Source: Bacteroidia bacterium
Lineage (GTDB): Bacteria > Bacteroidota > Bacteroidia > UKL13-3
Direction: 5' to 3'
DNA: 64,000 nucleotides
NCBI GenBank assembly: GCA_025454975.1
Contig: JALONK010000002.1
Coordinates: 62,001-126,000 of the forward strand
In this document: piece by piece, positions 12,101-57,522 of the stretch
How positions within the stretch are numbered: position 1 is the stretch's first letter
Layout: the number at the start of each line of letters is the position of its first letter
Notes under the pieces: generated by a model
The model's database searches: none
What the model saw: the letters and a program-made list of their open reading frames with translations, nothing else
What the model was told of the DNA's origin: nothing
Position numbers and translations under genes: made by a program

Positions 12101-15100
12101 GGCTCACCTGCAATTGGCGCCGGCGTACCGATTTCAGTTGTTACAACCGACCATTTGGATGTGAACAGGGGAACAACTACAACCACCGTTGGAGCTTATG
12201 AAAATGGTGGCGATTTTATCCCCCCTACTATTAATTTTGTTGCATTAAGTAATACCTCTTCAACAAATAATAGAGTATTAACAGCCTTTGCTAACATTAC
12301 TGATATAACTGGAGTAAATATTACAACTAATCGCCCGCGAATCTATTATAAGAAAAGCACAGACGCGAATGCCTATAATGGCAATACTTCAAGCGATAAC
12401 GGTTGGAAATATACAGAGAGTACAAATACATCCAGCCCTTTTAACTTCACTATTGATTATTCTATATTATTCGGTGGTGGTGTTTTACCAAACGATGTAA
12501 TCAATTATTTTGTGGTAGCACAGGATATTTCTCCAAATAATTTAGTAGGTGTCAGCTCTGGTACTTTTGCAACTAACCCTGCAAATTCAAACCTTACTTC
12601 CGCTGCATTTCCAATAACCGGAGTAACAACTTCTTACACAATTGTTCAGTCGTTATCGGGCACTTACACCGTAGGTAGCAGCAATCCTGTGTATCCTAAC
12701 TTAAATGCAGTGGCGGCAGACTTAGCGGTTAAAGATGTAGTTGGACACGTAATTTTCGAATTGCAATCAGACTATAATGGAGTAAATGAAATAACACCTA
12801 TTAACTTTCCTGCCTTTAACTCAAGCAGCGGAAACTGGACAGTTACCATTCGTCCTGCGGCAGGTGTATCAAACAGAGAAACTTCAGGTTATCCGAATTC
12901 AACAGCGGGAGTAATTATTTTAAACGGTGCAAACAGATATACCTTAGATGGTCGTGCAGGTGGTATAGGAACCACCTCTGATTGGTTAATTCGTGCCAAA
13001 AGAGGAGTTTCATCTTCTGTTTCGGCAGCAGTTGAACTAATTAATGGAGCGCAAAGGAACACCATCACTTACCTTACCATGGAAAGTGATAATACGTCAA
13101 CTACAAGTGGAGTTGTTGAAATTTTAGGTACGAATAACTTAGTTGGAAATAGCTTTAATCTAATCACTAATAATATTATTCGTTCACGTACTGATTCCGC
13201 GGGAGTTGCAGCAATTGGTATTTATTCGGCCGGAAACGCAAGTAACTTTAACGACAGTAATATCATTACTAATAATCAAATATTAGATTGGAATACCGCA
13301 GGTGTCCATGTTACATCAGTTGGTAATGGAATTAATTGGCGAATCACTAATAACAACTTCTACATGACTTCAACGCGTTCAGGCGCACAAACCTCTATTC
13401 GCTTCGAAGCGGGTGCTAATTCAACCGGTTTAAGAATAACAGATAACTTTATCGGAGGTAGTGCTATCAATGCAGGAAGTGCGGCATGGGTCAATACCGG
13501 AAATATTGCTTTTAGGGGAATTGTTTGTTCAGCTTCAACTTCTGATAGTGCTATCATAACCAACAATGTAATTCAAAACATTGTTCTAACCGGAGGTACG
13601 GGAACATTTACAGGAATAGAAATGACAGGTGCAAGGGCTTCAATAAGAAACAATACTATTGGGCATGCGACTACTGCCAACAGCATACAAACTTCTCAAT
13701 TAGGAATCATTACCGGTATTTGGTTTAATAATTCGAACAACAGCGGCACCATACGCAACAATATAATTTCAAATCTATCGTCAACAGGCAATACTACCGC
13801 AGTTGGCGTTAATGGAGTTAGAATTACCTCAGGAGTTACTACCGTACCTTTGCTAATAAATGGTAATACCATTTCAAACATTACTGCCGCGAATCCAACA
13901 ACTGCAAATACTACTGCCTCATTGGTTGGAATTCTAAGTATCTATGCCGGTATCCAACAGGATATTTCAAACAACACGATTTCAAACCTAATCAATGTAG
14001 CGAATGCTTCTACCAATGTATTTGGTATTAATGTAACAAACACAGCAGGGGCTGGAGTTATTCAATCAAACACAGTAAATAACTTAGACAATAAGAGTGG
14101 AAATGCGAATGCTCAAGTAGTAGGCATTCATTTGGATCTTGGTTCTTCGTGGGTAGTTAGAAACAACATGATATCATTAGGATCGTTAATAGATTCATCT
14201 TGCATTGTAAGTGGTATTCAAGATAAAACAACAGGAACCAATAACAGCATCTTCCATAACACGGTGCTTATTTCTGGTGTAGCAGTTTCATCAAGTGCAA
14301 CAAATAGTTTTGGCTATAGAAGAACAACAACCTCAACAAGTAATGTTCGCAACAATATTTTCATGAATACACGTACAGGTGGTATTGGTAATTATGCCAT
14401 TGGTAATGTATCAACCTCACCTTCTACCGGTTGGTCGGCAAACTTTAATGTTTTACAAACAAACAATGCATCAACAGGATTGTGGAATACTACACCACTT
14501 GCATTTGCAAATTGGAAAACTACAAGTTTACAAGATAGTTCATCCATACAATTAGCTGTACAATTTGTATCAACAGATAACCTGCACCTAACTTCAACCA
14601 GTATTGGTAATATGCAGTTAGCAGCACCATTAATTAATTCGGTTGTAGTTGATTTTGATGGAGAGGTAAGAAATACCTTTGCTACTTATATGGGGGCAGA
14701 TGAAATTCCTGCTAACCCATTACCGGTTAAACTAAGCCTATTTACAGCAAACAGGTTAAGTGATGATGCAGTTTTAAATTGGCAAACTACTTTTGAAAGG
14801 AATTCAAATCGTTTTGAGATTTTAGCATCTACAGATGGAAATACTTTCGAGCAAATAGCAACAGTTAAAGCGAAAGGTAATAGTACAACAATAATAAACT
14901 ACAGATTTACTCATGTGGATGCGAAATCATTTGCAGGTACATCCGGTATAGTTTATTATCAACTAAAAAGTATTGACAACAGTGGAAATTTCGAATACTC
15001 AAAAGCGGTTTTAGTTAAATTTGATAACACACTTACAACATTCGAAATTTATCCTAATCCGGCCCAATCAATGGTAAACATAAAATACCATGAGAGTAGT

Positions 15101-15265
15101 CCGGCTGTGGTACAAATTATCAATATGAATGGTGTTGAGTTAAGCTCGTTCAACATTCAACAAAACACAACAATTGATATTTCAAATTTACCTGAAGGTA
15201 CATATTTAATAAAGGTAATCAGTGGTGGTGAAGTTGCAATTAAGAAATTAATTAAGTTAAATTAA
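6161..15265 (+). CDS. Giant beta-helix surface protein, T9SS type A cargo
   Basis: The protein has 3034 residues. A signal peptide ends at MVSYAQ (residue 31). Most of the chain is Asn/Thr/Ser/Gly-rich, with hundreds of short turns such as IxNNTIxxI, typical of right-handed parallel beta-helices. It is divided into blocks that each close with an IGADEF/IGAFEY/VGAYEN/MGADEI motif. Two blocks (977-1440 and 1552-2015) are an in-register duplication. An all-beta linker lies between them. Residues about 2850-2955 resemble the FN3-like domain common before sorting signals (LNWQTTFERNSNRFEI). The last about 75 residues (FEIYPNPAQSM ... GTYLIKVISGG) are a T9SS type A sorting domain. It is probably displayed on the cell surface as an adhesin or polymer-binding protein; no catalytic motif was seen. 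Confidence 0.93.
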   Translation: MITTITQLILRTKSWLMALLTITTSMVSYAQVNVTATSGTLSQSYPTIKQACDSINSGYHMGIITIGISSNTIETATATLVGSGTGAASYRTILITPTGGATRVITGNFNGPLIELNGADSITINGLNTGGNNLVLQNTNIGSLATVLQLSADAQANNCIQTTFKGSGVGTSIGVITFTSGILTGNDNNNIINCTIEESSGGNPSNGIISIGSTTAGLENSNNYIGFNSVANFFNATASSNGILLGAGNTNNTITNNRLFQSATRTYTIGATHRAIGVLSGNQNRVDSNIIGYASPTKTGIYTMAGTVISRFIGIELQVGSTVASSVQGNEIASISLNTSYNVATGFSSLGGIVITGGSVNIGNLQGNIIGSTTGTGSITVNCSSSTSGAVGINVATTGAVNIQNNTIASIAAVPATSTIVTVILGINISAVASSLIIQNNTIGNNSADNLSAGVLGVTTANSQAVGILFTSTPNLNTITGNTIQNLSSFGTGVSGFARGIATGTSGVTGADMIITNNTVSNITGYGPLANIGSGLLAVTGIHCLSPSTYNISGNTVFNIRFLGVGTTQINVGGIIVAAATTAITTTNKVHGNTIYGIVNNGSGTSLTAPSVAFGIGIRSGNNVIEIANNMISLGSGQSTNTTFIGIYGNHGSSPNPVVNIYHNTINISGTVSSGGLPSFGIFRGDFSTTARTMSYDIKNNIITNTRSGGTGKHYAISNGFGATTPSSVGWGPGNSDNNVLNADSLTIGAWGSTDYTMAGWRAISTCDLNSYSRIAVAYVNAANNLRLNMGTNVTAIESGGTVNTGITVDIDNQTRPGPVGSINGGGIKPDIGADEFDGTPLDLIAPIITYNNLSIACNTGNRTVSASIVDITGVNLTGTLVPRIYYKKNFLGTWFSQPGNFVSGNSKTSNWDFTIVSADMGVLNTFDSVYYFIIAQDSGASAVNVGSMPNGAVASNVNTITSFPSINNSYVIGFNFNGNYTLNGGLPNSSTNFQNLFELQRALSNGCISAASEVDFNAASGPYSGALNINALIGSSPTNILRLNGNGSVINHTPVNDARHIIRLNGADYINFSNFTINGLSTDFGWGFHLLNEATNDSIINCTINLSSVTSTTVDNSACIAASASSTDINLGGNNTRNLTVINSKLIGGYQSVVINGAATQASYYNQFINDTIMDFYSIGIELTNNDSTIIRNCDISRMNRVIVTTFEGIELGVGNRKVWINANRIHDSHNSATTQSGTAYGIFSTGNDAPIGGENVITNNLIYNLNSLTGIIYAIYNSGSDGVRYLHNTVTLTHAAATSGTTRGFFQTTLASNIEFRNNLIFISRGGTGVKHCVYFGTTTSSIIANHNNYYLNAPSGTNSIGYYGSDFATLNDWKTANSNAYDQQSRNNNPAFVSIANDNYTPTSSGMNNGGSASSILTDILGSTRSATTPDIGAFEYSPPPLDSRINWVGPVAPSTSGTQTITVSVTNISSAAVTITDLELAYTDGSTTQTQTFSNLNITQGATQQLSFSSTYNFTTSTNFTAYISSVNGGLDGNQTNDTIRQSLCPAFAGGTYTINNALPTGGSNFASFSSAFAALSCGISGPVIFNVDPTSGPYTEQVVIPEIAGITASTPITVNGNNRTLQFTPTTAARHIIQINGADYLTIKDLNIVGLATDFGWAVHLTNGAQFDSLINCTINLNAVTSTTVDNSACIVASSSTTDINAGGLNAGNFTVKGCTLIGAYHGIILNGNGSSTTNNNKVLNNVIRDFHAIGVEFTQLDNSMIAYNDISRANRVAVGSFEGITIGSGVRNVRVNANKIHDTHNSATTQSGLAYGIYSTASDAVVGQENIFSNNVIYNLNSLTGTVYGIYNNGSDGAHYFYNTVDISNTLSTAGLARGFYQLSAASNIVFRNNIVTIGRGGSGAKNCIYLGTTTSTVVSNNNLLTMNSTTGTVGVGYFGSNFVSLNDWKTANSSAYDQLSITGDPLYNSATNFIVLPGSPAIGAGVPISVVTTDHLDVNRGTTTTTVGAYENGGDFIPPTINFVALSNTSSTNNRVLTAFANITDITGVNITTNRPRIYYKKSTDANAYNGNTSSDNGWKYTESTNTSSPFNFTIDYSILFGGGVLPNDVINYFVVAQDISPNNLVGVSSGTFATNPANSNLTSAAFPITGVTTSYTIVQSLSGTYTVGSSNPVYPNLNAVAADLAVKDVVGHVIFELQSDYNGVNEITPINFPAFNSSSGNWTVTIRPAAGVSNRETSGYPNSTAGVIILNGANRYTLDGRAGGIGTTSDWLIRAKRGVSSSVSAAVELINGAQRNTITYLTMESDNTSTTSGVVEILGTNNLVGNSFNLITNNIIRSRTDSAGVAAIGIYSAGNASNFNDSNIITNNQILDWNTAGVHVTSVGNGINWRITNNNFYMTSTRSGAQTSIRFEAGANSTGLRITDNFIGGSAINAGSAAWVNTGNIAFRGIVCSASTSDSAIITNNVIQNIVLTGGTGTFTGIEMTGARASIRNNTIGHATTANSIQTSQLGIITGIWFNNSNNSGTIRNNIISNLSSTGNTTAVGVNGVRITSGVTTVPLLINGNTISNITAANPTTANTTASLVGILSIYAGIQQDISNNTISNLINVANASTNVFGINVTNTAGAGVIQSNTVNNLDNKSGNANAQVVGIHLDLGSSWVVRNNMISLGSLIDSSCIVSGIQDKTTGTNNSIFHNTVLISGVAVSSSATNSFGYRRTTTSTSNVRNNIFMNTRTGGIGNYAIGNVSTSPSTGWSANFNVLQTNNASTGLWNTTPLAFANWKTTSLQDSSSIQLAVQFVSTDNLHLTSTSIGNMQLAAPLINSVVVDFDGEVRNTFATYMGADEIPANPLPVKLSLFTANRLSDDAVLNWQTTFERNSNRFEILASTDGNTFEQIATVKAKGNSTTIINYRFTHVDAKSFAGTSGIVYYQLKSIDNSGNFEYSKAVLVKFDNTLTTFEIYPNPAQSMVNIKYHESSPAVVQIINMNGVELSSFNIQQNTTIDISNLPEGTYLIKVISGGEVAIKKLIKLN
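9089..10480 (+). repeat. Beta-helix module, copy A, inside the giant surface gene
   Basis: A 464-codon block from FNGNYTLNGGLP to DIGAFEY. Landmark codons (VDNS at offset 414, HNSATTQSG at 762, WKTANS at 1197) fall at identical offsets in copy B (10814-12205). Similarity is clear in protein but diluted in DNA, so the duplication is not recent. Confidence 0.85.
10814..12205 (+). repeat. Beta-helix module, copy B, inside the giant surface gene
   Basis: A 464-codon block from FAGGTYTINNALP to TVGAYEN. It has the same length as copy A and carries VDNS, HNSATTQSG and WKTANS at the same offsets from its start (414, 762, 1197). A 333-base segment encoding an all-beta linker domain separates the copies. 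Confidence 0.85.
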
Positions 15266-19325: not shown

Positions 19326-22300
19326 TTACCTTAATAAGGTAACATTACCTTCTCGAATAAATTTATTACCGGAAACAAAACTTCCTTCAACAATCCATAC
19401 ATAAACATCACTTGCACATGCGCGCCCTCCTGTTTCGCCATTCCAAGCTTCGTAAGGATTATTAGTTTTGAAAACTAATTTACCCCAACGGTCATAAACC
19501 CTAAATTCATACCCTTCTAAATTTATACCGGTGTAAACCGGAATAAAAACATCATTTACATTGTTGCCATCAGGAGTAAAGGCAGTTGGTACAAATATAG
19601 TTGCCGCATCATCAACCGTAATAGCATTAATCACTGTTGATGAATCAGTACAGTTAAATTCGTTAAATACAACCAACTTCAGCGTATATCTACCTGCCCC
19701 GCTAAAACGGTAGGATGAATTTACATTGGTATCAGTAAAGATTATGTTGTTTAATGAATCAAATAAGTACCACCTGTTTACCACAGCATCAAATGAAGTA
19801 TTGGTAAATGTACTTATGGCTTCGGGTAAAAATATAGTTGATGGATTGATAGTAAAACGCGCCCTCGGCAAATCATGCACAATAATACTATCTACCTTTT
19901 CTATTGTTGAATCACCACCGGGACCGTAAGCAATTAATTCAACCGTAAATTTATCATCACGTGTGTAAGTCTTGGTAGGATTTTCTTCAGTTGATCTTGT
20001 TCCATCGCCGAAGTCCCAACGATAAGCAGTTGCATATTGACTCTCATTTATAAATTGAACAGTAAGTGGTCGGCAACCTTCTTTAGGAAACATGCTGAAC
20101 GCAGGAATTGGCTTACGAGGCATTACCCTTATACTTCTAAAGGCGGTATCCTTGCAACCTTTATCGGTTTCAATAATTAACCTCACCAAATAATTTCCCG
20201 AATCAGTATATTGATGTTGTGGATGTTGCAAAACAGAACTCGAGCCCGGAAATCCATCGCCAAAGTTCCATTGATGCGACAAAGTGCCGGAGCTAAGTAA
20301 TGAAATATCTGTAAATCGAATATTCGCATCAGGCATTTGAGCGATAGGCGGATTGGCTATAAATTGCGCAGTAGGTACTTCATGAATATTAATATAGGCT
20401 GATTTTACAGCAGTATCTGAACATCCGGTTGCTGCATAAGCTATCAACCTTACTTCGTATGCACCTGTGTTTACATATTTATGCGTTGGATTTATTTGAT
20501 TGGTACCTCCTCCATCGCCAAAAAACCAGAAATAACTTGAGGCATTGGTTGAACGATTGAAAAATGTGACATCTAAATTTGCACAACTTTGGGTAACATT
20601 AGCATCAAACTCAGCGCTTACCAAAGGGTTAACAACAATGGTGGAACTACTTGTGTCGCGACATCCATTAATGGTTGTGGCTATTAATCGGGGTTGATAT
20701 AAAGTATCGCCATTTGATTTGCTTCTGTAATAATGCACCGGAACAAACAATGTTGATTGTTGTCCATCACCGAAACGCCATTGATAGGTAGAAGCTCCTT
20801 GTGAAGTATTCAAAAACCGATATTCTGCAGTATCACACCTAAGTGTTTTTGTTGCACTGAACTGTGAAACAGGTAAAGGATAAACTACAATATTATTTTT
20901 AGCGGTATCCGTACAACCTGCGTTTGAGTATGCTCTTAGCGTTACCGGATAAATGCGGTTTACATTTAACAACGGGTTGTCAAATAACTTGGTCGGATTA
21001 GCAGCGGTATCAGTTGAACCATCACCAAAATCCCAATCATACCTTACTCCTCTTAAGCCAGTATTATTAAAGGTAACGGTGTATGGCGAACAACCGGGAG
21101 GTATGTGCACAAATCTTGCATCCGGATTAGGATTTAAGGTTACCGGACGTATGAATGTATCTCGGCATCCATAAGGAGATGTTGTAACCAGCCTAACTTG
21201 AAAAACGGTATCACGAGTTGGTGAGCCTACAAAGAACCTAAGCGGATTTACTGCTGTTGATGTTGTGCCGTTTCCAAAGTTCCACTGGTGTGTAGTGCCA
21301 CCTAATGATGAATTAAAAAAAGTAATGTTTCCATTGCCACAGATACTGTCATGTGATGGAAGAAAATCAGCCACTGGATTATATCTGGCAACAATGGTAC
21401 TTCTCGCGGTATCACCCCAACAACCAAATACCGATTGGGTAATCATACTAACAACATAAGCAGAATCAAAAACATCATAAGATAAAAAGCGGTGGGATGG
21501 ATTGAAGCGCATTGATGTATCGCCATCATTAAAATCCCAGTAATACCTGAAGCCAAGTTGTGATGTATTATTAAATTGAACCTGTAAAGGCCCACAGCCT
21601 GCATTCACAGAAGGCACAAATGAAGTTACGGGATTAGGACGAACAGTAATAAAACGAGAAGTTGTATCAACACAACCGTGTTCGCTTGTGGCTGTTAGTA
21701 GAACCCGATAAGAAGTATCTGCTAAAATTTTTGCTAAAAAAACAGCCTGTGGTTCAGTATTAGTTGAAGTTAATCCGTTGCCAAAGTTCCAATTAAATGT
21801 CATATCAGCAACAGTCCCGGTATCGTTAGGGTAAGATTGATTTAAAAACTGCACTTGTAATGGTCCACAACCCGCATTGGTACTTGGAGTGAAAAATGCA
21901 ACCGGTTTAGGATATACCCGCACTTGCTGAAGTGTTGTATCGCTACAACCATGTTCACTAAAAGCAATTAGTCGAATTTGATATATGGAATCGTTAACAT
22001 TAGAAGCAATAAAAGTTGAAGTGGGCTGAGCAATTGTTGAAGTAAGTCCATTACCAAAATTCCATTGAAAATTCATGATTCCAATTGAGCCTGTATCGTT
22101 TGGAATTGATGTGTTGTTAAATGTGGTTTGGTGCGGGCCACAACCCGCAGGATTAACTGCTGTAAACCTTGACAATGGCTGAGGGAAAACTCTTATAGAT
22201 TGATTCGATGTATCGCTGCAACCAAAACGTGATGTTGCAATTAACCTTATGGTATAGTTGGTATCTTGTGAGTTTGAAGGCTGTAAAGTTACTGATGGTT

Positions 22301-25300
22301 GAGCAAGTGAAGAAGTTTGGTTATTGCCGAAATTCCAATTAAAACTCATGTTGCTTATATTTCCTCCAAAACGATGCACAGAAGTATTTGAAAAATTAAC
22401 GGCTAATGGACCACAACCTGCATTAATTGATGGAGAGAAAACACTGATTGGTTTGGGAAATACGCGCACTGTTTTGGTAATGCTATCGCTGCAACCCGGA
22501 CCATTTTCTGCAATTAATTTTATGGTAAAAACAGAGTCGTTATTAATTGATGCAGGATAAACAGCAGTTGCATTTACATTTGTTGATTGAGTACCATTAC
22601 CCAAATTCCATCGGTAAGAAATTCCATTTGGAGTGGTGTTTAAAAACTGAACAGCTAAAGGCCCACATCCACTATCTCTACTGATTGTAAAATTCGGTAC
22701 GGGATTAGACAAGGTTCTTACTGTTTGGACTGCTGTATCAGGCCGGCAATTAAACTGATTAAATGCAACCAAAGAAACCAAAAACTGTTGATTACTTAAA
22801 CTAACAGTGGTATCGCTTCGGTTGGTTAAGGTAGAAGTAGGTTCACCATTAACAAGCCATCTGTAGGTGTTCGCTTTTACCGATTGATTGGTAAAGGTAA
22901 AAAGTTTAGGTGCACAACCAAAGGTGTCATTCATAACAAATCTTGCTTCGGGTAATGGCCTGGAAATTACCGTACGAGATACTGAGTCACGGCATCCCTG
23001 CAATGTTATGCCTAACAGTTGCACAGTAAAAGTGCCCGAATCACTGTAAATGTATGGGAATGGACCGGTCGCATTTAAAATTATATCACCCGAGCCATCA
23101 CCAAAATTATAGCGATAAATGAAGGCACCAACACTGGTATTATTAAAAGTAAACGTATCACCTGCACATAATGCACTTTGCGAGTTGAGTTGGATAAGCG
23201 GAGTGGTGTTTACTATAGTGTTAATGCTATCGGTATTGGTACAACCATTATTAGTTGTAACGGTTAGCTTAGTTCGAAATGTACCGGCAGAGGGGAATAT
23301 AAAACTAGGATTTCTAGTCGTGCTATCAATAATGCCATCGTTATTAAAGTCCCAAGCCCATTGAGTGATGTTCCCGGACGCAACAACTGAGCTGTCTGTA
23401 AATCGGGTTTGTTGACCCGTACAGGCTAAGCTTCTGAATAACCTTGCATCAGGGTTAGGATGTACAACATAATTTTGGGTTATGGCAGTTGAACATCCAA
23501 CATTATTTTCAGCATAAAAACTTACCGAATATGTACCTGTTGATGGAAAACGATAAACAGTATCTTCAACGCGGGCGGTATCGCCAGTTCCGAAAGTCCA
23601 ACGAAATGCAGTTAAGGTTGCCGGAGCCGCTGTGTTTGCTGTACCATTAAATGAAACTATGCCTCCATTACATATTGATGTTGGGGTAGGTGAAATAGAA
23701 ATTGTTGGTGAAGATTTAACAGTAACGTTAACCATTGCTGTATCTCGACAGGTTTTATCAGTTGTAATTTCCAGAATAGCCGTAAATGTTCCACTGGCAG
23801 GATAAGTATAGTTAACTGATGCTGCGCCATTAGGAATACTATCGCCATTGCCAAATAACCAACGGTAACGAGTAATAACATCGCCTGTGGCCAATGTTGA
23901 ATTGCTATTAAAATTAGTGGCACTACCTCTACAAACTGTACCGGCTGTAAAAGATGCAACAGGTAAAGTACTTACAGCAATATTTACGATTTGCGAATCA
24001 ACACCACAAGTATCCCGCACTACTAATTTAATTTGGTAATTACCGGTAAGGTTAAAAGTTACAGGTGTTGGGTTTCTAAGTGTTGAAGTTTGACCGTTAC
24101 CAAAATCCCAAAAGAAGGTAGCATTGTTACTAATATTTACGGTATTATTAGTTGGTGAAATGGTGTGAGGTACACAACCGGAGGAAACATTACCAATATT
24201 CACAGAAGGTTTAGCAAACACCCGCACGGTATCTCGAACAATTACATTATTGGCACAGGTATTACTCACTTGTAAGCTCACAACATAGGTACCGGGATTA
24301 TTGAATGTTCTGTTTTCAATAAGATTAGTTCCAGTTCCGGGTGTTGTTCCGGGAAAAGTCCACACCCTTGAATTTCCAATACCTAATGAGGTGTCATTAA
24401 CGGTAATGGTTAAAGGTGCACAGCCAAATTTTGGTGTTAGAGTAAACCCCGGAACCGGAGGTCGGTTAATCAGTACTGTTGTAAAAGTGGTATCGCTTCC
24501 GCAACCATTACTATCAATAAGCATAATGGTATATGGGCCTAAAGAAGGAAATGTATGTGTTTGCGGGCCTTTACTTGTAATCCATCCTGTATTCGTACCA
24601 TCGCCAAAGTCCCAATAATAATATCGCGTTCCTGTGATACAATTATCTTCCGACGAATTGCCAAAAGTATAGGTTAACGAAGGTGCACATAAATTTGTTG
24701 GTGGATTAATTCGTGCCACATCCTTATCAAAAATTAATACGGGAGAAATGGTAAATACAGATGCATTATTAGCACCTGTATTACAATTGGTGTTAATGGC
24801 AGATAAAGAAACAGTATAAACACAATTTCCTGTTGGGCTAGGCAAATAAGTATGGGTAATGGGCTGATTGGCTTGAGTCCAATCGCGAGTAACAATGGTT
24901 CCATCACCAAAATTCCAAGTAAAAATTGTACCGGGCAAAGCAAACTGCGTTGTATCTTGAAAGGTAATGGTATGAGGTGCGCATCCTGCAAGTTGGCCGG
25001 CAGGAAGTGGTTTAATGGAAGTACTCACCGGCCTCATATTAATTACAGTACCTCTTATGGTATCAGTACAGCCGCCATTAACGGTAACTATGCGAATCGG
25101 GAATAATCCAAGAGTAGTGTAAGTGTGGTTAACCGTGCTGCCAATGGGTAATGATGCCCCGCTATTGTTTGGGGTATTATCACCCCAAATAATTGTATAG
25201 TTGTTTAACACCGCATTTGAGCTAACCTGAATACTATAATTGGATGATTGTAGTGGATTAATTATACAGTTACTCCAACGAGGGTTGAATGTAAAAGCAC

Positions 25301-25670
25301 CAAACCCATCAAAAATTAAAGCTGCACCCGAAGTAATGGTAACTGTTTGTTGAATAGAATCGCGACAGCCGCCAGGCGTGCGAGACACCATTCGAACTGT
25401 ATAGGTACCCGGACCCGGAAAGGCATAATTGAAAGGTGTAGTTCCAAAGGTACTATCAACACGAACGCCATCAATACGCCATAAATAAGTTGAAGTAGCA
25501 GCTAATGAACCTGTTGAAGTATTGGCAAAGGAAAAGTATGATGGTACATTACAACCATTTTGAGCTGGCACATTAAAACTCAGGCTTAGATTGGCACATC
25601 TATTTTGAGCACTAACCTGAAAAATAATTAAGGGCAAGCACAGGGTAAGGTATAATCGCAATAGTTTCAT
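19326..25670 (-). CDS. Giant PKD-repeat surface protein, T9SS type B cargo
   Basis: The protein has 2114 residues from the ATG at 25670. An upstream in-frame ATG (25721) would add 17 residues ahead of a clean signal peptide (MKLLRLYLTLCLPLIIFQVSAQ) and is less likely. About 23 tandem PKD-like domains can be counted, each near 80-95 residues, with WxFGDG/WNFGNG turns. Most carry one cysteine at the start (GCGP, GCAP) and one near the end (GCSDT, GCRDT). The last about 90 residues (PTAFTPDGNNVNDVF ... YDRWGKLVF ... GNVTLLR) form the gliding-motility-associated C-terminal domain, a T9SS type B sorting signal. Proteins of this design are long surface fibres, often adhesins. No enzymatic domain is visible. 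Confidence 0.93.
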   Translation of the reverse strand: MKLLRLYLTLCLPLIIFQVSAQNRCANLSLSFNVPAQNGCNVPSYFSFANTSTGSLAATSTYLWRIDGVRVDSTFGTTPFNYAFPGPGTYTVRMVSRTPGGCRDSIQQTVTITSGAALIFDGFGAFTFNPRWSNCIINPLQSSNYSIQVSSNAVLNNYTIIWGDNTPNNSGASLPIGSTVNHTYTTLGLFPIRIVTVNGGCTDTIRGTVINMRPVSTSIKPLPAGQLAGCAPHTITFQDTTQFALPGTIFTWNFGDGTIVTRDWTQANQPITHTYLPSPTGNCVYTVSLSAINTNCNTGANNASVFTISPVLIFDKDVARINPPTNLCAPSLTYTFGNSSEDNCITGTRYYYWDFGDGTNTGWITSKGPQTHTFPSLGPYTIMLIDSNGCGSDTTFTTVLINRPPVPGFTLTPKFGCAPLTITVNDTSLGIGNSRVWTFPGTTPGTGTNLIENRTFNNPGTYVVSLQVSNTCANNVIVRDTVRVFAKPSVNIGNVSSGCVPHTISPTNNTVNISNNATFFWDFGNGQTSTLRNPTPVTFNLTGNYQIKLVVRDTCGVDSQIVNIAVSTLPVASFTAGTVCRGSATNFNSNSTLATGDVITRYRWLFGNGDSIPNGAASVNYTYPASGTFTAILEITTDKTCRDTAMVNVTVKSSPTISISPTPTSICNGGIVSFNGTANTAAPATLTAFRWTFGTGDTARVEDTVYRFPSTGTYSVSFYAENNVGCSTAITQNYVVHPNPDARLFRSLACTGQQTRFTDSSVVASGNITQWAWDFNNDGIIDSTTRNPSFIFPSAGTFRTKLTVTTNNGCTNTDSINTIVNTTPLIQLNSQSALCAGDTFTFNNTSVGAFIYRYNFGDGSGDIILNATGPFPYIYSDSGTFTVQLLGITLQGCRDSVSRTVISRPLPEARFVMNDTFGCAPKLFTFTNQSVKANTYRWLVNGEPTSTLTNRSDTTVSLSNQQFLVSLVAFNQFNCRPDTAVQTVRTLSNPVPNFTISRDSGCGPLAVQFLNTTPNGISYRWNLGNGTQSTNVNATAVYPASINNDSVFTIKLIAENGPGCSDSITKTVRVFPKPISVFSPSINAGCGPLAVNFSNTSVHRFGGNISNMSFNWNFGNNQTSSLAQPSVTLQPSNSQDTNYTIRLIATSRFGCSDTSNQSIRVFPQPLSRFTAVNPAGCGPHQTTFNNTSIPNDTGSIGIMNFQWNFGNGLTSTIAQPTSTFIASNVNDSIYQIRLIAFSEHGCSDTTLQQVRVYPKPVAFFTPSTNAGCGPLQVQFLNQSYPNDTGTVADMTFNWNFGNGLTSTNTEPQAVFLAKILADTSYRVLLTATSEHGCVDTTSRFITVRPNPVTSFVPSVNAGCGPLQVQFNNTSQLGFRYYWDFNDGDTSMRFNPSHRFLSYDVFDSAYVVSMITQSVFGCWGDTARSTIVARYNPVADFLPSHDSICGNGNITFFNSSLGGTTHQWNFGNGTTSTAVNPLRFFVGSPTRDTVFQVRLVTTSPYGCRDTFIRPVTLNPNPDARFVHIPPGCSPYTVTFNNTGLRGVRYDWDFGDGSTDTAANPTKLFDNPLLNVNRIYPVTLRAYSNAGCTDTAKNNIVVYPLPVSQFSATKTLRCDTAEYRFLNTSQGASTYQWRFGDGQQSTLFVPVHYYRSKSNGDTLYQPRLIATTINGCRDTSSSTIVVNPLVSAEFDANVTQSCANLDVTFFNRSTNASSYFWFFGDGGGTNQINPTHKYVNTGAYEVRLIAYAATGCSDTAVKSAYINIHEVPTAQFIANPPIAQMPDANIRFTDISLLSSGTLSHQWNFGDGFPGSSSVLQHPQHQYTDSGNYLVRLIIETDKGCKDTAFRSIRVMPRKPIPAFSMFPKEGCRPLTVQFINESQYATAYRWDFGDGTRSTEENPTKTYTRDDKFTVELIAYGPGGDSTIEKVDSIIVHDLPRARFTINPSTIFLPEAISTFTNTSFDAVVNRWYLFDSLNNIIFTDTNVNSSYRFSGAGRYTLKLVVFNEFNCTDSSTVINAITVDDAATIFVPTAFTPDGNNVNDVFIPVYTGINLEGYEFRVYDRWGKLVFKTNNPYEAWNGETGGRACASDVYVWIVEGSFVSGNKFIREGNVTLLR

Positions 25671-25736
25671 GAACTTAATAGCCCCAAACAAAAATAGGCA
25701 TTTATTACAAAAATCGCCCATTCATACCAAAATAGT

Positions 25737-36367: not shown

Positions 36368-38275
36368 TCACGCCAAACGTGAAAATGGCTTTTTAGACTG
36401 AGGAAAATCAACACCCATTGCAAAAGCAGTGATTAATCCGAACATACAGGCAAATATTACATCCTTTATTTGTAAATTCATGTTGGTTTGCGGTAATGAT
36501 GAACTGTTCATCATGGTAAAACCTATACCAATCAAAACAAACACTATGGCAAACCATTGATAAATACGTAAGCCATTCCAATACTTAGTTTGACTTTCAC
36601 CTCGGTAGTTTTCTTCAATAAAACGACCAATACCTGATAAAATAAAATAGGTGCCGGTAATTAATGAAGAAGAACATCCCTCATAATACATTCTTGAAGT
36701 AAACGCAAGAATTAATATTTGCATCATCAATGAATAAAACGGAGTAGCATGAATTATTACACCGTGCATTCCGCTAATTTTAACTACTCTTGATTGTGGG
36801 TGTGTAACCCTTATTAATAATCCATTATTATTGTGCGCTTCACAACCATGGCAACAGCCCTGACTAACACATCGCAAACGACCGATGGCAACAATGGCCG
36901 GAGCCGCAATACTTATAGCAGCCATTAAATCAAAAACAGATATCTGCTTATATGAGGCCATTATAACTAGTGCAACTGCGCCACCTAAAATTGCACCAAA
37001 ATAACCAAACGGCCGTTGTAAGGCTGTACTTCCTTCAATCCAACGTCCCCAAATAGCGCCACCGGCAAGAGTTGCGCAGCCTGTAATGATTATCAAACCA
37101 TGATCATGTAATATTGAAAACAAAATCAGATATCCTGTTGAGGCTGCTAAAAATGGAAACACAGCATGATGCATAATTCTGAATGAACCAACCTGAGTTG
37201 CATTCCAACTATTGGCTAATTTCTCTACCAGTATTGACAACCTTTTCCATAAATAATCGTAATTCCTAGCCACCAAATAAAGCAAATAGCCGACAGCTAA
37301 ATCAAACACTGCATGCATGGCAGTAAACCAACAAGCAATGGTAGCCAACCAAGCATAAACCAATAAAAAATTGCGTGCGCCTTTATACTTCAAACCATAA
37401 ATATAATAGGCTGTAAACACCCAAAATACATGAAATGAAGGTAAACAAGCCCAAACAGCATCAACTTGTTTTTCAAACCGTATCCAATCAGCAAAAAATC
37501 CATCAGGTGTTGTTACATCTGCTACTGCAACAAAAGGAAATGCCCACAAAATTAAACCCCCTATTATAGTTCCGATCCACGACATAAAGACAAATTTCCT
37601 AAGTAACATGCGGTTGGAAACCAATACAGGAACCATAGCAACAAAAGGATAAACTAAAGAATACAAAATAATAAAAGCAGGAAAAACTTTAACGGATTTA
37701 GGGGTTAGGTAGGTATTAATTGGTTGATTTGAAGGCCCAAAATAAATTGCACCTTCATATACTATTAACCATGGTACAAAAGCCATTAACGCAATAAGAA
37801 TTCGATTAGACACTGTTACTTTATCACTATCAAATAATGCTTTATAAAAGTTGGTGTGATAGTTAGTGGGCTGATAAATCTTTTGAATGTGAGCATTTTC
37901 AAATCCATAAACAAGTGCTAAACAACAGAGCGCAATAATTGGTGAAACATACCAAAAACCGAAAGGAATGGATTGCCAAATAAAAAACCCAAATACCAAT
38001 AACACGAATCCAACATAAATAGGATGTTTAAACCAAGCATATAGGCCATTATTAACTAAGAATTTGGGAGGATAAGCATTCATGGGCAAACCTTTGCCTT
38101 GAATGAATAGTTGAAGCATAGCAATGCTTATAAATAGCATACCTATTACCATAAAACAAATGCCTATACTTTCATCAAAAGGTACATCACGATTAATTTG
38201 AACTGAACTTCCCCAATACCAAATAAGTAATGGAATCCCAATGGTGAATATAAGTGCATACAGGAATTTGCCCAT
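36368..38275 (-). CDS. Multidomain membrane protein: methyltransferase-like, PAP2-like and Lgt-like modules fused
   Basis: The protein has 635 residues and many membrane segments. Residues 1-170 resemble isoprenylcysteine/phospholipid methyltransferases: NNGLYAWFKHPIYVGF (His84, Pro85) and an acidic YGFENAHI (Glu126). Residues about 195-345 resemble PAP2/inositol-phosphoceramide-synthase enzymes: LPSFHVFW (His282) and TAMHAVFDLAVG (His321, Asp325), the paired histidine and aspartate of the family. Residues about 365-635 resemble prolipoprotein diacylglyceryl transferase: GRLRCVSQGCCHG (465-477), ATPFYSLM and GIGRFIEENYRGE (Arg551). The usual PxQLYE glutamate appears as Ser. All three relatives act on lipids at the membrane, so a lipid-modifying enzyme is likely; reaction and substrate are unknown. 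It starts 3 bases after the upstream gene. Confidence 0.8.
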   Translation of the reverse strand: MGKFLYALIFTIGIPLLIWYWGSSVQINRDVPFDESIGICFMVIGMLFISIAMLQLFIQGKGLPMNAYPPKFLVNNGLYAWFKHPIYVGFVLLVFGFFIWQSIPFGFWYVSPIIALCCLALVYGFENAHIQKIYQPTNYHTNFYKALFDSDKVTVSNRILIALMAFVPWLIVYEGAIYFGPSNQPINTYLTPKSVKVFPAFIILYSLVYPFVAMVPVLVSNRMLLRKFVFMSWIGTIIGGLILWAFPFVAVADVTTPDGFFADWIRFEKQVDAVWACLPSFHVFWVFTAYYIYGLKYKGARNFLLVYAWLATIACWFTAMHAVFDLAVGYLLYLVARNYDYLWKRLSILVEKLANSWNATQVGSFRIMHHAVFPFLAASTGYLILFSILHDHGLIIITGCATLAGGAIWGRWIEGSTALQRPFGYFGAILGGAVALVIMASYKQISVFDLMAAISIAAPAIVAIGRLRCVSQGCCHGCEAHNNNGLLIRVTHPQSRVVKISGMHGVIIHATPFYSLMMQILILAFTSRMYYEGCSSSLITGTYFILSGIGRFIEENYRGESQTKYWNGLRIYQWFAIVFVLIGIGFTMMNSSSLPQTNMNLQIKDVIFACMFGLITAFAMGVDFPQSKKPFSRLA

Positions 38276-38278
38276 AAG

Positions 38279-39052
38279 TTATGGCCATAGCGCCCTTTCA
38301 AATATAGTTTTAAATTGCATTTCCCATAAATTCACTTTAGCGTGAGCAATTCCAACAAATTTTTCTTCTGTAATACGAAAGGCCTTAATTGGGAATAAAT
38401 ATTTCAGTATGGATAACGTTTTAAATATGGTTTTTCCTACCTCACCCCTGCGTAACGGAGTGGCCTTTTGTAACGAACATGAGGTTCCATCTGCCAAGAA
38501 TAGGTCATTCAATTCAATACTGGAAACTTGTTGTTCTTTCCCATTTAACCATGCTTTATGTATTGGGTGTTTTCCTTTCCAAACAATCCAAACCAAATGA
38601 TTATGAGAATTAATTGCCCTCCCCCAATACAATTCCTTTATGGGTAGTTTCCATGGTGCTATTGTAGTTTCAAGCACTTCGGCATAACCTAAACCTTTAT
38701 AAGTTTTTCCTTCAATTATTACTTCTGCATCGCATAACGGAGCAAAACAATCCCAACTTACCAAATTTGCACCATCCCTATATAATTCTTGTGGATCAAT
38801 AGGTTTATCCAAAGGGTTCCAACTTCCTTGCAATTCATCAAAGCTTATCTTGAAGTTTGATTCTTTTTTTAAGGATAGAGGCTTGTTAAACCTATTAACC
38901 TCTGTATAAACACCCAAGTTACTTTTTAAACAATACCCGGAGTAAGTAAATTGAATTATACCCCATTTAATTTTAGCCACATAAACAATAAGATGTTCAT
39001 TGTTGTCTGTTTGTAAATCGGCATAATACTTTTGAGTATAGAAACTGGGCAT
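38279..39052 (-). CDS. Protein of unknown function, possibly lipocalin-like
   Basis: The protein has 257 residues with no signal peptide. It is rich in tryptophan and aromatic residues and predicted all-beta: IIQFTYSGYCLK, GLGYAEVLETTIAPWKLP, ELYWGRAINSHNHLVWIVWKG. The GYAE and LxWGRA spacing is reminiscent of the lipocalin-like hydratases and AttH group, which handle carotenoids or other hydrophobic molecules, but I cannot establish homology by eye. It is separated from the multidomain membrane protein by 3 bases and from the upstream unknown gene by 35 bases, so all three are probably one operon. A binding or carrier role for the lipid handled by the downstream enzyme is inference. Confidence 0.75.
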   Translation of the reverse strand: MPSFYTQKYYADLQTDNNEHLIVYVAKIKWGIIQFTYSGYCLKSNLGVYTEVNRFNKPLSLKKESNFKISFDELQGSWNPLDKPIDPQELYRDGANLVSWDCFAPLCDAEVIIEGKTYKGLGYAEVLETTIAPWKLPIKELYWGRAINSHNHLVWIVWKGKHPIHKAWLNGKEQQVSSIELNDLFLADGTSCSLQKATPLRRGEVGKTIFKTLSILKYLFPIKAFRITEEKFVGIAHAKVNLWEMQFKTIFERALWP

Positions 39053-39087: not shown

Positions 39088-39654
39088 TTAACCAAGGCGT
39101 TTCTGCATGGTTTGAGTAACCGAGTTAAACAATTGTTGGGGCGACAATTTACGCCAATTTAGTGCATTTAATTCGCCACCAAAAACTAAATAAAAATCAA
39201 TATTTGCCTGGGTAAACTCATCAAGTACATGTTGTTGAAAATTAATTGCGGCAATCCAACCATCTTCCAATTCTTGAAACCACTCTTCATAATAACAATC
39301 ATCACTACAATGAAAATTAAGCACATTTTCACCTATCAATATAAACCGATTGACACCCTCAGCCATTAACACTTCCGCTATTTCGCGTTTAAACATCATC
39401 ACATCATTATGTATGGCATCATTCCATTCCCCGATAAGTTCAATAATTGCGTATCCTTCACGATAATCAGCATAAAGAATTTTTATATACAATGTAGGTG
39501 AGCCAAATTCGTCCCATTGAGGGTGTATAAGGTAATTATATATGCGATTGCTATACTCAAACTCACTGTACTCACGATTATAAAAAGGTGATAATCGGTC
39601 ATCTTCTGCCCGGTACAAATCACGCCACCTGTAAAACGGTTCTATATCCTGCAT
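39088..39654 (-). CDS. Conserved Bacteroidota protein of unknown function
   Basis: The protein has 188 residues from the ATG at 39654 (MQDIEPFYRWRDLYRAEDD). A frame extending to 39744 would run through the predicted promoter and was rejected. It is acidic, soluble and aromatic-rich: SPFYNREYSEFEYSNRIYN, HPQWDEFGSPTLYIKILYAD, IELIGEWNDAIHNDVM, FILIGENVLNFHCSDDCYYEEW. The high conservation I recall for these blocks across Bacteroidota suggests a real, widespread family, but I know of no assigned function. It is the first gene of the likely operon with the unknown and multidomain membrane genes. The promoter -7 box ends 5 bases upstream, so the mRNA may have almost no leader. Confidence 0.82.
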   Translation of the reverse strand: MQDIEPFYRWRDLYRAEDDRLSPFYNREYSEFEYSNRIYNYLIHPQWDEFGSPTLYIKILYADYREGYAIIELIGEWNDAIHNDVMMFKREIAEVLMAEGVNRFILIGENVLNFHCSDDCYYEEWFQELEDGWIAAINFQQHVLDEFTQANIDFYLVFGGELNALNWRKLSPQQLFNSVTQTMQKRLG

Positions 39655-39658
39655 CCCA

Positions 39659-39689
39659 CAAATGTAATTACTGATTGAATAAGGACAAA
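39659..39689 (-). promoter_or_regulatory. Predicted promoter of the 39654-36368 operon
   Basis: On the minus strand TTTG (39689-39686), a 19-base spacer and TACATTTG (39666-39659) match the Bacteroidota consensus exactly. Transcription would start at or within a few bases of the ATG at 39654, so a leaderless mRNA is possible. Confidence 0.65.
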
Positions 39690-39722
39690 TAAAAAACAGG
39701 GAGTAAAATGCCCTTTTAACAC

Positions 39723-39752
39723 TTTGATTACTCAAGTAAAACACTATTTTTG
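39723..39752 (+). promoter_or_regulatory. Predicted promoter of metK
   Basis: TTTG (39723-39726), an 18-base spacer and TATTTTTG (39745-39752) match the consensus. The start of transcription would be near 39758, leaving a leader of about 39 bases before the ATG at 39797. No SAM riboswitch is visible in so short a leader. Confidence 0.65.
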
Positions 39753-53589: not shown

Positions 53590-56500
53590 ATGAAATATCT
53601 TTTACCGGTTTTTATATTGTTAACCTATTCATTATGCCTGAATGCCCAAAATATTACTAACTATACCCTGACTTCAACAAGCGGGCAGTATATTCCTATC
53701 ACAGGTGGGGTTCAACTTACACCTACCCATGGTGACTTTGATGAAGGATTTTATGCTAATATTCCTATTGGATTTGAATTTGTATATATGGGACAAGTGT
53801 ACTCCACTACATTTGCATCCACCAATGGTTTTATTGGCTTTGGTTTTTTTAACACATCAACTGTTTATAATTCAGCAAATAATAACCTTGGAATAAGTTC
53901 TTTTTTACCGGTGGGTCGACCATTTATAGCTCCATTATGGGATAACCTAGACATGGATAGTTCAACCGGAGCAGCGTTTATTTATCAAACATCAGGTAAT
54001 GCACCTAATAGAGTATTCACGGCTGAATGGCGAAATGCCGAATGGAATTGGTTTGCGAATGCATCAGTAATTTCTATTCAATTGAAACTTTACGAACGAA
54101 CAGGGGCCGTTGAATTTATATATAGAGATGAGCCAAATGCTGCATTATCGCCATCAGCAACTATTGGTATTGGCGGATTCAACAATACGGAGTTCTTATC
54201 GTTAAATAACACCTCATCTAACCCTTCTGTTAGCAGTACAACTTCCTTTAACGGATTAAATAACAAACCGGCCAACGGACAAACGTATACATTTACGCCG
54301 CCAGTACCTCCGAACCCTACCACTTTCAGTACCTCATTGGTTCAAGCTACCAGACTTACGGCAAATTGGGCCTCAGTATTCGGTGCAACAAGGTATGCTG
54401 TGTATTATTCTACTGATAATGTAAATTTTCAATTTGGAGGCATAACAAGTTCAACTCAACTTCCTATTTCCGGTTTAACACCAAACACTTTGTATTATCT
54501 GCAGTTATACGCAATATCTGAAGGTGGGTTTTCTACTATTCCTGCTACAACACAAGTTACCACCTTATCAGGTGCATTAAGTGGCACCTATAATATTCCG
54601 GGCACATGGAATAACATAACTGCCGCATTAGACTCCATTAAATTAGTAGGGATTGGAGGACCCATCATTTTAGAATTACAACCAAATTATTCCTCAACAA
54701 ACGAAAGATATCCTATTACATTTTCCGACAGTTTAGGCACAAGTAGTACAAACCCACTAACAATAAGACCGGCTGCGAATGTAACATCACCTTTGAATAT
54801 AGAACCAACATCAATTGTAAATTCAACAATTAACTTTTTTGGTGCACGATCAATAATTTTAGATGGAAGAGCAGGAGGAACAGGTACATCAGGAATGTTA
54901 ATGGTTAGAACAAACTCGTTTAATGAGGCTATTGCTTTTAACGGATTTAACAGACAGACGATCGTTCAACATTTACGAATCTTACCAACTAGCACCTCAT
55001 TAAGCAATAATGTTGGAGTATATATTGAACTTAACTTTTCTAATTCCCAAAACCAACAGCAATCGAATGGAGAAATTACCATTCAAAATTGTGTTATCGG
55101 TGATAGTAATATGTTTTCAACCTATGGGATTTATTCAATAGGTTGGAATCTGAACGCCCTAGTCAGTTCTATAAATATTGAAAACAACTTTATTTTTAAT
55201 TGTGGTTTCTCAAATTCATCCAGTGTAGGCGCCGCCATATATCTTAGTATGTCTAATAATATACATAATAGCGTGTGGAATATAACAGGTAATCATATTT
55301 ATAATTTACTTCCTTTGGGTGGCTCATTTAATGTTCAAACGTATTATGGTATTTACTCAAATGCCAGGTTCAATCGAATCAACAATAATTACATTGGTGG
55401 GTCAGCTCCATTTTGCGGTGGATCACCACTTGAGATTGGACCTGTATCTGCAAACAATTCAATTGCGGCGATTTTCTGCCAAAACAACAACAATAATGCG
55501 TGGTCATCCATACAAGGTAATACCATTAACAATATCTTTTGGCCAACCTCAGGTACAACTCCATTTACAGGTATTTTTGTGCAAACACAAACAGCATTTG
55601 TAGGTGATACAATTGGCAATATAATAGGAGATACAACAGGAGTTTATGGTATTTTTGCATTAAGCCAAAACCAAAGTATAACTACCCCTAACAATTATGG
55701 GATTAGAGTTAATGCAACAAATTCGTTAATTATTAAATCTAATATCATTTCCGGAATTAATTCAAGTGGTACAACCAATAACTTTGCCGCTAGTTTTACC
55801 GGTATTTTAGGTCAAAATGCCATTAACGCATCCATTCTTGATAATACCATTGGAAGTGTAACCCATGCCAACAATATCAGATGTGGATCTACTGCTCCAA
55901 CAGGATCACAACAACTGATAGGCATTCAATTTGGTTCAACCGGCGCCGGTGTACATCAAATCAATAACAATACCATATCCAACCTAACTAACCTTAATAT
56001 TTCATCTAATACACAAAACTATGTTTGTGGTATTTCGGTTACCTCCAATACCAATTCATTCATTGAATCGAACAATATTTTTAATTTAAGTTCTGCAAGC
56101 ACCAACCCTTCTGTAAATAATTTTAGTGCCGTTACCGGTATTTTGTTAAATTCTATTTCAGGAAGCTCTTCTATCACCGCAAACAAAGTGTACGCTTTAA
56201 GAAATACAGGAAACAATTCTTCCGGCCGAATTAGTGGTATAACTTCAGCTTCAACAAGCGGAAATCCAACACAGGTTGAGGCTAATTTAATTCATAGCTT
56301 TACACATTCATCACCTTCAATTCAAGCTTCACAGGTTGCCATTCATATGCAAGACGGAAACTTAAATGTGGCAAATAATATGATTAGGTTAGGTATTGAC
56401 GGGAGTGGAAACTCAATTGCCCAAGCCATTAATTTAATAGGCATTTTAAAGGCTACACCATTAATTGGAAGGGTACATCACAACACAATATTTATTGGTG

Positions 56501-57522
56501 GAACAGTAACTTCAACTGCTAACATCAACACCTATTGTATCAGAAAATTAAATGATGGTAATGATGAATTTGTCAATAATATTTTTGTTAATCAACGAAG
56601 TAATGCAACTACCGGTGGTAAACATTATGCGATAGGATTAAATACGCCTAACAATTTATTATGCGATAGAAACCTGAACTTTGCTCCTTTAAATGGAGGA
56701 AGATTATTTCAACTAGGGACAAGTGATTTTAACACCAAATTTAGTTGGTTTTTACAAACCGGATTTGACGAAAACAGCGATAGTACTTCTATTGCCTTTA
56801 TTAATGCTACCGGAAGCACTTCTCAACTTGATTTACATTTAAATGCAACCATTCCTACCAAAGCAGAAGGCAATGGTGGTCCAACCTTTGTAACCTTAGA
56901 CTTTGACAGAAGTGACAGGAGTAGCTTAACTCCGGTAGATATTGGAGCTGATGCCGGCAATTTCATCAGTGTAAATATTACACCTGTTCCTGTAAAATGG
57001 TTATCGGTTGCTGCTGTAAAAAATGGTGATAATATCTTAGTTCAATTTTCTGTTACTAATGAAATTAACACTTCTTATTACCAAATTGAACGAAGCAAAG
57101 ATGGAAAACAATTTGAAATCGTTGGAACCCTTAAAGCATCCGGTAGAAAAAGCATTAAAAGCAATTACGTATTTACGGATGTAAATTTAATATGTGAAAC
57201 TTATTTCTACAGGGTTGTACAAGTTGATTATAATGGTGATTTTAGTGTATCACCAACAACTAAGGTTGATTGTTTAAATGGCTATAACATACAGTTAATT
57301 CCTAATCCGGCAAATGATGAGTTAACAATTTTTATTGGGAGCGAAATTGATGCTGCTGTTTTAATTACAGATGTTGCAGGCAATCCAATTTATTCAAATC
57401 AATTATTAAATCTACAAAAAATACAAATAGACACCCGCAACTGGGCAACAGGAATGTATTTTGTTAATGTTAGCTCTTCATCCGGAACAGTTAGCAACAG
57501 TAAGCTTATGATTAAACATTAG
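53590..57522 (+). CDS. Fibronectin type III/beta-helix surface protein, T9SS type A cargo
   Basis: The protein has 1310 residues with a signal peptide (1-20, ending LCLNAQ). Residues about 20-235 are a beta-sandwich of the kind seen in Bacteroidota surface proteins (GFEFVYMGQVYSTTFASTNGF). Residues about 240-325 are a fibronectin type III domain (SLVQATRLTANWASVFGATRY ... GLTPNTLYYLQL). From about 330 a beta-helix region begins with SGTYNIPGTW, TIRPAANV and ILDGRAGG, a module shared with the giant gene at 6161. Residues about 1130-1225 are an FN3-like pre-CTD domain (FSVTNEINTSYYQIERSKDG). The last about 75 residues (IQLIPNPANDELTIF ... WATGMYFVNVSSSSG) are a type A sorting domain. It probably acts as an adhesin or polymer binder; no enzyme motif is seen. 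Confidence 0.92.
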   Translation: MKYLLPVFILLTYSLCLNAQNITNYTLTSTSGQYIPITGGVQLTPTHGDFDEGFYANIPIGFEFVYMGQVYSTTFASTNGFIGFGFFNTSTVYNSANNNLGISSFLPVGRPFIAPLWDNLDMDSSTGAAFIYQTSGNAPNRVFTAEWRNAEWNWFANASVISIQLKLYERTGAVEFIYRDEPNAALSPSATIGIGGFNNTEFLSLNNTSSNPSVSSTTSFNGLNNKPANGQTYTFTPPVPPNPTTFSTSLVQATRLTANWASVFGATRYAVYYSTDNVNFQFGGITSSTQLPISGLTPNTLYYLQLYAISEGGFSTIPATTQVTTLSGALSGTYNIPGTWNNITAALDSIKLVGIGGPIILELQPNYSSTNERYPITFSDSLGTSSTNPLTIRPAANVTSPLNIEPTSIVNSTINFFGARSIILDGRAGGTGTSGMLMVRTNSFNEAIAFNGFNRQTIVQHLRILPTSTSLSNNVGVYIELNFSNSQNQQQSNGEITIQNCVIGDSNMFSTYGIYSIGWNLNALVSSINIENNFIFNCGFSNSSSVGAAIYLSMSNNIHNSVWNITGNHIYNLLPLGGSFNVQTYYGIYSNARFNRINNNYIGGSAPFCGGSPLEIGPVSANNSIAAIFCQNNNNNAWSSIQGNTINNIFWPTSGTTPFTGIFVQTQTAFVGDTIGNIIGDTTGVYGIFALSQNQSITTPNNYGIRVNATNSLIIKSNIISGINSSGTTNNFAASFTGILGQNAINASILDNTIGSVTHANNIRCGSTAPTGSQQLIGIQFGSTGAGVHQINNNTISNLTNLNISSNTQNYVCGISVTSNTNSFIESNNIFNLSSASTNPSVNNFSAVTGILLNSISGSSSITANKVYALRNTGNNSSGRISGITSASTSGNPTQVEANLIHSFTHSSPSIQASQVAIHMQDGNLNVANNMIRLGIDGSGNSIAQAINLIGILKATPLIGRVHHNTIFIGGTVTSTANINTYCIRKLNDGNDEFVNNIFVNQRSNATTGGKHYAIGLNTPNNLLCDRNLNFAPLNGGRLFQLGTSDFNTKFSWFLQTGFDENSDSTSIAFINATGSTSQLDLHLNATIPTKAEGNGGPTFVTLDFDRSDRSSLTPVDIGADAGNFISVNITPVPVKWLSVAAVKNGDNILVQFSVTNEINTSYYQIERSKDGKQFEIVGTLKASGRKSIKSNYVFTDVNLICETYFYRVVQVDYNGDFSVSPTTKVDCLNGYNIQLIPNPANDELTIFIGSEIDAAVLITDVAGNPIYSNQLLNLQKIQIDTRNWATGMYFVNVSSSSGTVSNSKLMIKH

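Follow-up and report, generated by a model that had tools for sequence, protein, structure and literature searches.

In the window, that is, the whole stretch of 64,000 nucleotides analysed here, a single gene on the minus strand (36368..38275) encodes a membrane protein of 635 amino acids and 18 predicted transmembrane (TM) helices in which a PEMT-like, a PAP2/IPC-synthase (IPCS)-like and an LGT-like module are joined. These three modules are real, and the protein belongs to a conserved family that combines known folds in a new arrangement, has a probably inverted LGT module and is accompanied by an unnamed partner family. The tri-modular protein probably makes a lipid hitherto undescribed. 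Architecture, conservation, operon, partner fold and the fact that one clade has lost its PAP2 residues are all computed observations; new relative to the initial annotation are a conserved partner gene and the predicted inversion of the LGT module.

The open reading frame at 36368-38275 (-) starts with ATG and contains no internal stops. The initial annotation had described one chain of 635 residues, without a frameshift, carrying motifs of three enzyme types, and both the ORF check and the alignment placed every one of these motifs at the residues given there. Module 1 (residues 1-150, 37826..38275, minus strand) is PEMT/ICMT-type methyltransferase-like by the Pfam PEMT match and a weak ICMT profile match; it has four TM helices and the HPIY motif at residues 84-87 (38015..38026, -). 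Module 2 (residues 155-354, 37214..37813, -) is PAP2_3/IPC-synthase-like by the PAP2_3 segment match and Foldseek; it has six TM helices, with PSFH at residues 279-282 (37430..37441, -) and HxxxD, comprising H321 and D325, at residues 321-325 (37301..37315, -). Module 3 (residues 369-621, 36413..37171, -) is LGT-like by Pfam, by the Foldseek match to 5azb and by the charge control described below. It contains GRLRC (465-469) and CCHG (474-477), which belong to the LGT signature equivalent GRLRC...GCCHG at residues 465-477 (36845..36883, -), and GRFIEE (550-555), which overlaps RFIEENYRGE at residues 551-560 (36596..36625, -), the segment that aligns with R239/E243/R246 of E. coli Lgt. The module borders proposed earlier (1-170, 195-345 and 365-635) are close to the elements of the AlphaFold2 model.

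Searched as a full chain, the protein matched Pfam LGT at residues 423-588 (E 6.6e-18, over the cut-off) and PEMT at residues 37-135 (E 9.9e-7, 29.6 bits against a cut-off of 25), while ICMT stayed below the Pfam cut-off. PAP2_3 passed its cut-off only when the segment 190-350 was isolated (29.4 versus 27 bits, E 8.7e-7); it was matched in 17/17 sampled members with intact motifs, with a best E-value of 9e-19. In 54 aligned full-length homologues, LGT and PEMT were detected in all and PAP2_3 in 37, and the order of the modules was constant. Each of the three segments is therefore matched over a Pfam curated cut-off, none being left without a match, and the profile searches (Pfam, NCBIfam) placed the whole chain in no known characterised family. 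The scores against the NCBIfam equivalogs of true Lgt were far lower than required (TIGR00544, 40.7 versus a cut-off of 118.9; NF000778, 46.2 versus 334 bits).

The AlphaFold2 model of the tri-modular protein, built from the 54-sequence alignment, reached a pLDDT of 90.4 and a pTM of 0.91. Its top Foldseek matches in the PDB were E. coli Lgt (5azb), followed by IPC synthase/AUR1 (9vj4/9ivc) and SMSr (8ijq), each with a probability of 1.00, although for this multi-module query the E-values were only 1e-3 to 0.1. This supports the LGT assignment and the IPC/sphingomyelin-synthase type of the PAP2 module. The profile search of solved structures returned Lgt at 3.9e-8, AUR1 at 0.065 and, weakly, the ICMTs (5vg9/4a2n) at 0.004. 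A profile was required for this, the single protein giving no matches in a phmmer search of the PDB.

The pattern of conservation among the 54 members is strongest in the LGT module. G465, R466, R468, C469, G473, C474, C475, H476 and G477 of the signature equivalent are invariant (54/54), as are R551, F552, E554, E555, R558, G559 and E560. In the profile alignment the equivalents of E. coli Lgt R143, R239, E243, R246, G142 and G154 are invariant, while other residues essential in that enzyme are replaced: H103 by F/Y, N146 by C, G145 by R and Y235 by S/N/T. The roles of H103, R143, N146, G154 and R239 of E. coli Lgt have been described (PMC4728403, PMC13251419), and N146C occurs in distant Lgts, that of Leptospira having C at this position (PMC13251419). 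As several essentials are replaced, diacylglyceryl transfer by the module is not assured. In the HPIY region of the PEMT module P85, Y87 and G89 are invariant and H84 is present in 51/54; G124 and E126 are invariant or nearly so. Most members retain HPxYxG, E126 and FG, but the downstream tyrosines (Tyr-x-x-Tyr after FG) are absent, so that the use of SAM is putative. The window protein has the H-H-D set of PAP2 (H282, H321, D325); H282 and the H and D of HxxxD are present in 41/54 members and lost in 13/54. The PAP2 C1 motif KxxxxxxRP was not found, column 253 being R in 31/54 and D in the window protein. Linker residues between the modules are conserved as well, e.g., NSWxEWRxGxVRIINHG. The window protein itself has a long branch and alterations at near-invariant positions (E359A, W360T, Q411R), which mark it as a divergent member.

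Within a sample of 395 Bacteroidota genomes that included the window's own, the full-length protein was found in seven others, and a PEMT+LGT version devoid of PAP2 in one; none of the remaining genomes sampled from the genus and family of the window's host had the tri-modular protein, and the plasmids searched for it gave no match. Scanning genome contigs with the single tri-modular sequence yielded no matches, while a scan with an alignment profile, on a sample of one genome per species, yielded at least 132 loci. Eighty of these were retained, and in nearly all of them the match covered the greater part of the chain, at about 30-38% identity. The profile scan extended the range of the protein beyond Bacteroidota, the homologues being distributed over Bacteroidota, Ignavibacteriota, Acidobacteriota, Planctomycetota, Pseudomonadota, Gemmatimonadota, Verrucomicrobiota and Zixibacteria. 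Their patchy occurrence and a family tree in which phyla are intermingled suggest horizontal transfer. In Paenimyroides tangerinum the operon is found on two contigs (L048, L049) whose loci are equal in length and match, as would be expected from a recent duplication or from redundancy in the assembly.

Directly upstream of the fused gene, across a 3-bp gap and in the same operon, lies a gene for a partner protein of 257 amino acids with a lipocalin-like AttH/CrtC fold (38279..39052, minus strand). Of the 78 loci whose sequence extends far enough, 74 have a same-strand homologue of the partner upstream of the fused gene, as a rule only tens of bases away, and strong matches to the partner and to the fused (or PEMT+LGT) protein occurred in the same 9 of the 395 Bacteroidota genomes. 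The 18 partner members searched belong to no significant Pfam or NCBIfam family, one member reaching NCBIfam CrtC at E 0.013, so that the identity of the partner was resolved by structure and not by sequence families. The model (pLDDT 92.6) has a confident CrtC/AttH/Diels-Alderase lipocalin-like fold; its best solved Foldseek matches were pericyclases, AttH, kievitone hydratase and 25-phosphosteroid lyase (E ~1e-6 to 4.6e-8, TM-score at most 0.68). A hydrophobic segment resembling a signal peptide was seen in 0/44 members, and the partner is thus probably cytosolic; it could be a carrier rather than an enzyme. A further minus-strand gene, lying upstream of the partner (39088-39744, -), has no Pfam match and is not in the families common to the loci. 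Elsewhere in the window, three very large genes (6161-15265, +; 19326-25721, -; 53590-57522, +) encode proteins with C-terminal signals for type IX secretion (Por_Secre_tail, CHU_C); one of them has many PKD domains, and a 3034-aa protein among their products showed no further Pfam domain at E 1e-4.

The orientation of the modules in the membrane was assessed from loop charges by the positive-inside rule. The family-averaged K+R content alternates over the 18 helices with both ends inside. The HPxY loop (+3.35), the linker (+3.15) and the GCCHG head loop (+3.22) are assigned to the cytoplasmic side and the PSFH (-0.93) and HxxxD (-0.76) loops to the periplasmic one. The catalytic faces of the PEMT and LGT modules are accordingly predicted to be cytoplasmic and the PAP2 active site periplasmic, with the loops 528-539 (slightly positive) and 554-574 (slightly negative) being weak points of the prediction. 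Twenty-four stand-alone LGTs, encoded in the window's genome or in those of its relatives, served as the control; in them the positive charge resides in the loops opposite to those of the fused LGT. Over four loops the K+R count per protein is 0-4 in the fused and 7-17 in the stand-alone proteins, with no overlap; because the controls have a far longer version of one of these loops, the equal-length loops after helices 3 and 5 provide the fairer comparison. The loop of 11 residues that follows LGT helix 3 has 0.15 K+R in the fused versus 2.4-3.7 in the stand-alone proteins, and the loop after helix 5 has 0.98 versus 3.2-3.3; the net charge of the head loop is +3.2 versus 0 or -5.05. The PEMT+LGT relative without PAP2 has a charge pattern like that of the fused proteins. 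In E. coli Lgt, which conforms to the positive-inside rule, the catalytic side is periplasmic (PMC4728403). Judged by these charges, the LGT module is probably inverted relative to ordinary Lgt and faces the cytoplasm.

The gene content of the operons varies with the state of the PAP2 module. PAP2-intact loci usually consist of the partner and the fused protein alone, and no conserved neighbours besides the partner were seen in them. The 13 PAP2-dead members form one clade (SH-aLRT 98) and all have N instead of Q before GCCHG; most operons of this clade also contain an ABC ATPase and an ABC-2-type permease. The ABC genes are present in about 11 of 15 PAP2-dead loci versus two PAP2-intact loci, and since the PAP2-dead members are a single clade, this anti-correlation is not independent evidence. 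In seven PAP2-dead loci there is a gene resembling squalene/phytoene synthases, with intact DDIVDGD and DxxED-type motifs; the Pfam match of this family is weak and below the cut-off, and it adjoins PAP2-dead members only. Examples are L113:4947-5807, L102:4967-5836, L036:7162-8073 and L117:6977-7861, and the family has a conserved start, MRxRVFKHMLxTRGWKYRxFLRYLRFFKY. That several PAP2-dead operons contain it suggests a link to isoprenoids. The idea that a prenyl synthase belongs to the system in general was considered and rejected, the gene being absent from the PAP2-intact genomes tested. The PEMT+LGT fusion without PAP2 (L037:8967-10628, also in L013) has GCCYG and the usual YxxY after the PEMT motif, with the partner nearby and an ABC ATPase adjoining; it is possibly an ancestor-like form of the tri-modular protein. 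PAP2 is thus dispensable, its catalytic residues being lost in 13/54 members and the whole module lacking in this relative.

The invariant PEMT and LGT modules and the near-constant, probably cytosolic partner, all predicted to be at the cytoplasmic face, make the synthesis of a methylated lipid the most economical reading, and we give a probability of roughly 0.4 to a two-gene lipid-building system. The substrates, products and reaction order that we infer for it are as follows. The cytosolic lipocalin-like partner would bind or convert (cyclise or hydrate) a hydrophobic small molecule, which the membrane protein would then modify on the inner leaflet. There the flipped LGT-like module, with phosphatidylglycerol or a similar molecule as the donor, might attach a diacylglyceryl-type group to the non-lipoprotein acceptor that the partner provides, and the PEMT-like module might methylate the product using SAM. 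The PAP2/IPC-synthase-like module would then remove a phosphate or transfer a head group on the periplasmic face; one clade would have lost this step and acquired an ABC exporter. The outside PAP2 and the exporter may be alternative routes to finish or move the product. More tentatively, we envisage a widely transferred pathway in which an inverted Lgt-methyltransferase fusion and a new lipocalin-like family make a novel class of methylated, possibly isoprenoid-linked glycerolipids on the cytoplasmic leaflet, PAP2 or the ABC exporter serving as the outward step. The initial annotation had proposed that one head group is moved or modified in three steps. The three modules are present, but sequential catalysis on one head group is not supported, because PAP2 is dispensable and is predicted to lie on the membrane face opposite to PEMT and LGT.

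Among the other explanations, the tailoring of isoprenoids or quinones is unlikely. In this reading a polyprenyl or terpenoid compound would be cyclised or hydrated by the partner and methylated by PEMT, PAP2 would deal with prenyl phosphates, and the LGT fold would alkylate with a prenyl or other non-PG donor. The partner shares its fold with hydratase/pericyclase-type proteins, the CrtC match of one member (E 0.013) pointing the same way, and the squalene/phytoene-synthase-like gene of the PAP2-dead operons has acid-rich motifs; this gene, however, is missing from the PAP2-intact genomes tested, the PAP2 module is nearer to IPC/SM synthases than to prenyl-diphosphate phosphatases, and the LGT fold is, to our knowledge, known only for diacylglyceryl transfer. 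That same likeness to IPC and sphingomyelin-synthase structures, together with the Pfam PEMT match, speaks for a remodelling of phospholipid or sphingolipid head groups, with PEMT methylating an amino head group, PAP2 moving it in the manner of IPC/SM synthases and the LGT fold serving chiefly to bind lipid. We hold this to be improbable, as it is the LGT residues that are most conserved and the PAP2 residues that are lost in a clade, and the partner gene would be left unexplained.

An accessory role in lipoprotein maturation, in which the fused Lgt lipidates lipobox cysteines and adds extra modifications, would agree with the LGT family match and with the C at the N146 position that is shared with the distant Leptospira Lgt (PMC13251419). 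The replacement of H103 and the predicted cytoplasmic catalytic face make it very unlikely, and no gene for a lipobox substrate was seen in the operon. Ordinary lipoprotein maturation has its substrate cysteine presented at the periplasmic side and would be excluded by a cytoplasm-facing LGT module. The window's genome has, moreover, two more LGT-family proteins, a GCCYG paralogue and a 388-aa protein of a type common among relatives, the latter being probably its working Lgt. That unrelated membrane proteins were joined by chance or during assembly, a reading for which the modest score of the PAP2 segment was the only favourable point found, has a negligible probability: the same fusion, with its conserved linker residues, is carried by independent genomes in 54 aligned members across phyla, which refutes it.

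If the synthesis of a methylated lipid by the two-gene system is the correct reading, this would be the first case known to us of an enzyme with the LGT fold that acts at the cytoplasmic side and has no part in lipoprotein maturation, and its product would be a bacterial lipid made by many phyla and hitherto unrecognised. Family proteins labelled "prolipoprotein diacylglyceryl transferase" from their Pfam match would then be misnamed. A two-gene operon with an unnamed partner family leaves the product open to direct genetic testing, and members of the family are found in the cultured genera Neisseria, Akkermansia, Chitinophaga, Labrys and Arenibacter. The initial annotation knew of no enzyme described with this architecture, which agrees with the open-licence literature, in which we found no description of it, weak evidence as such an absence is; the nearest match there, on the lipocone superfamily, contains no description of the PEMT+PAP2+LGT architecture.

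We know of no link of the tri-modular protein to isoprenyl proteins or phosphatidylcholine. Its module 1 shares G-x-G-L-P...PP...HPxYxG and E...FG with the PEMT/isoprenylcysteine methyltransferases (PF04191; 5vg9, 4a2n), but the second half of their usual SAM region is not recognisable in it. Module 2 has a six-helix PAP2 core with H-H-D like that of IPC synthase AUR1 and SMSr (9vj4, 9ivc, 8ijq), from which it differs by its remote sequence (E 0.04-0.08) and by the disappearance of the catalytic residues in one clade. The partner has its fold in common with AttH/CrtC/pericyclase lipocalin-like proteins (2ich, 7e22, 6kaw, 7a0q, 9g4c), yet it is about 257 residues long versus 320-380, shares 7-11% identity with them and, unlike AttH/CrtC, has a conserved set of its own (K8, D12, Y24, W100, Y123, W143, W155 and E252). 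Module 3 has the same fold as E. coli Lgt (PDB 5azb; PMC4728403), which is a stand-alone enzyme facing the periplasm, whereas module 3 is fused to two other modules and predicted to face the cytoplasm. The signature nearest in form to its GRLRC...GCCHG is the GRLGC...GCCYG of the stand-alone GCCYG-type LGT paralogues, e.g., L135 (G000:C14:45640-46368) in the window's genome; these, however, are free of any fusion and have the ordinary orientation by loop charge, while module 3 is fused and, by the same measure, probably inverted.
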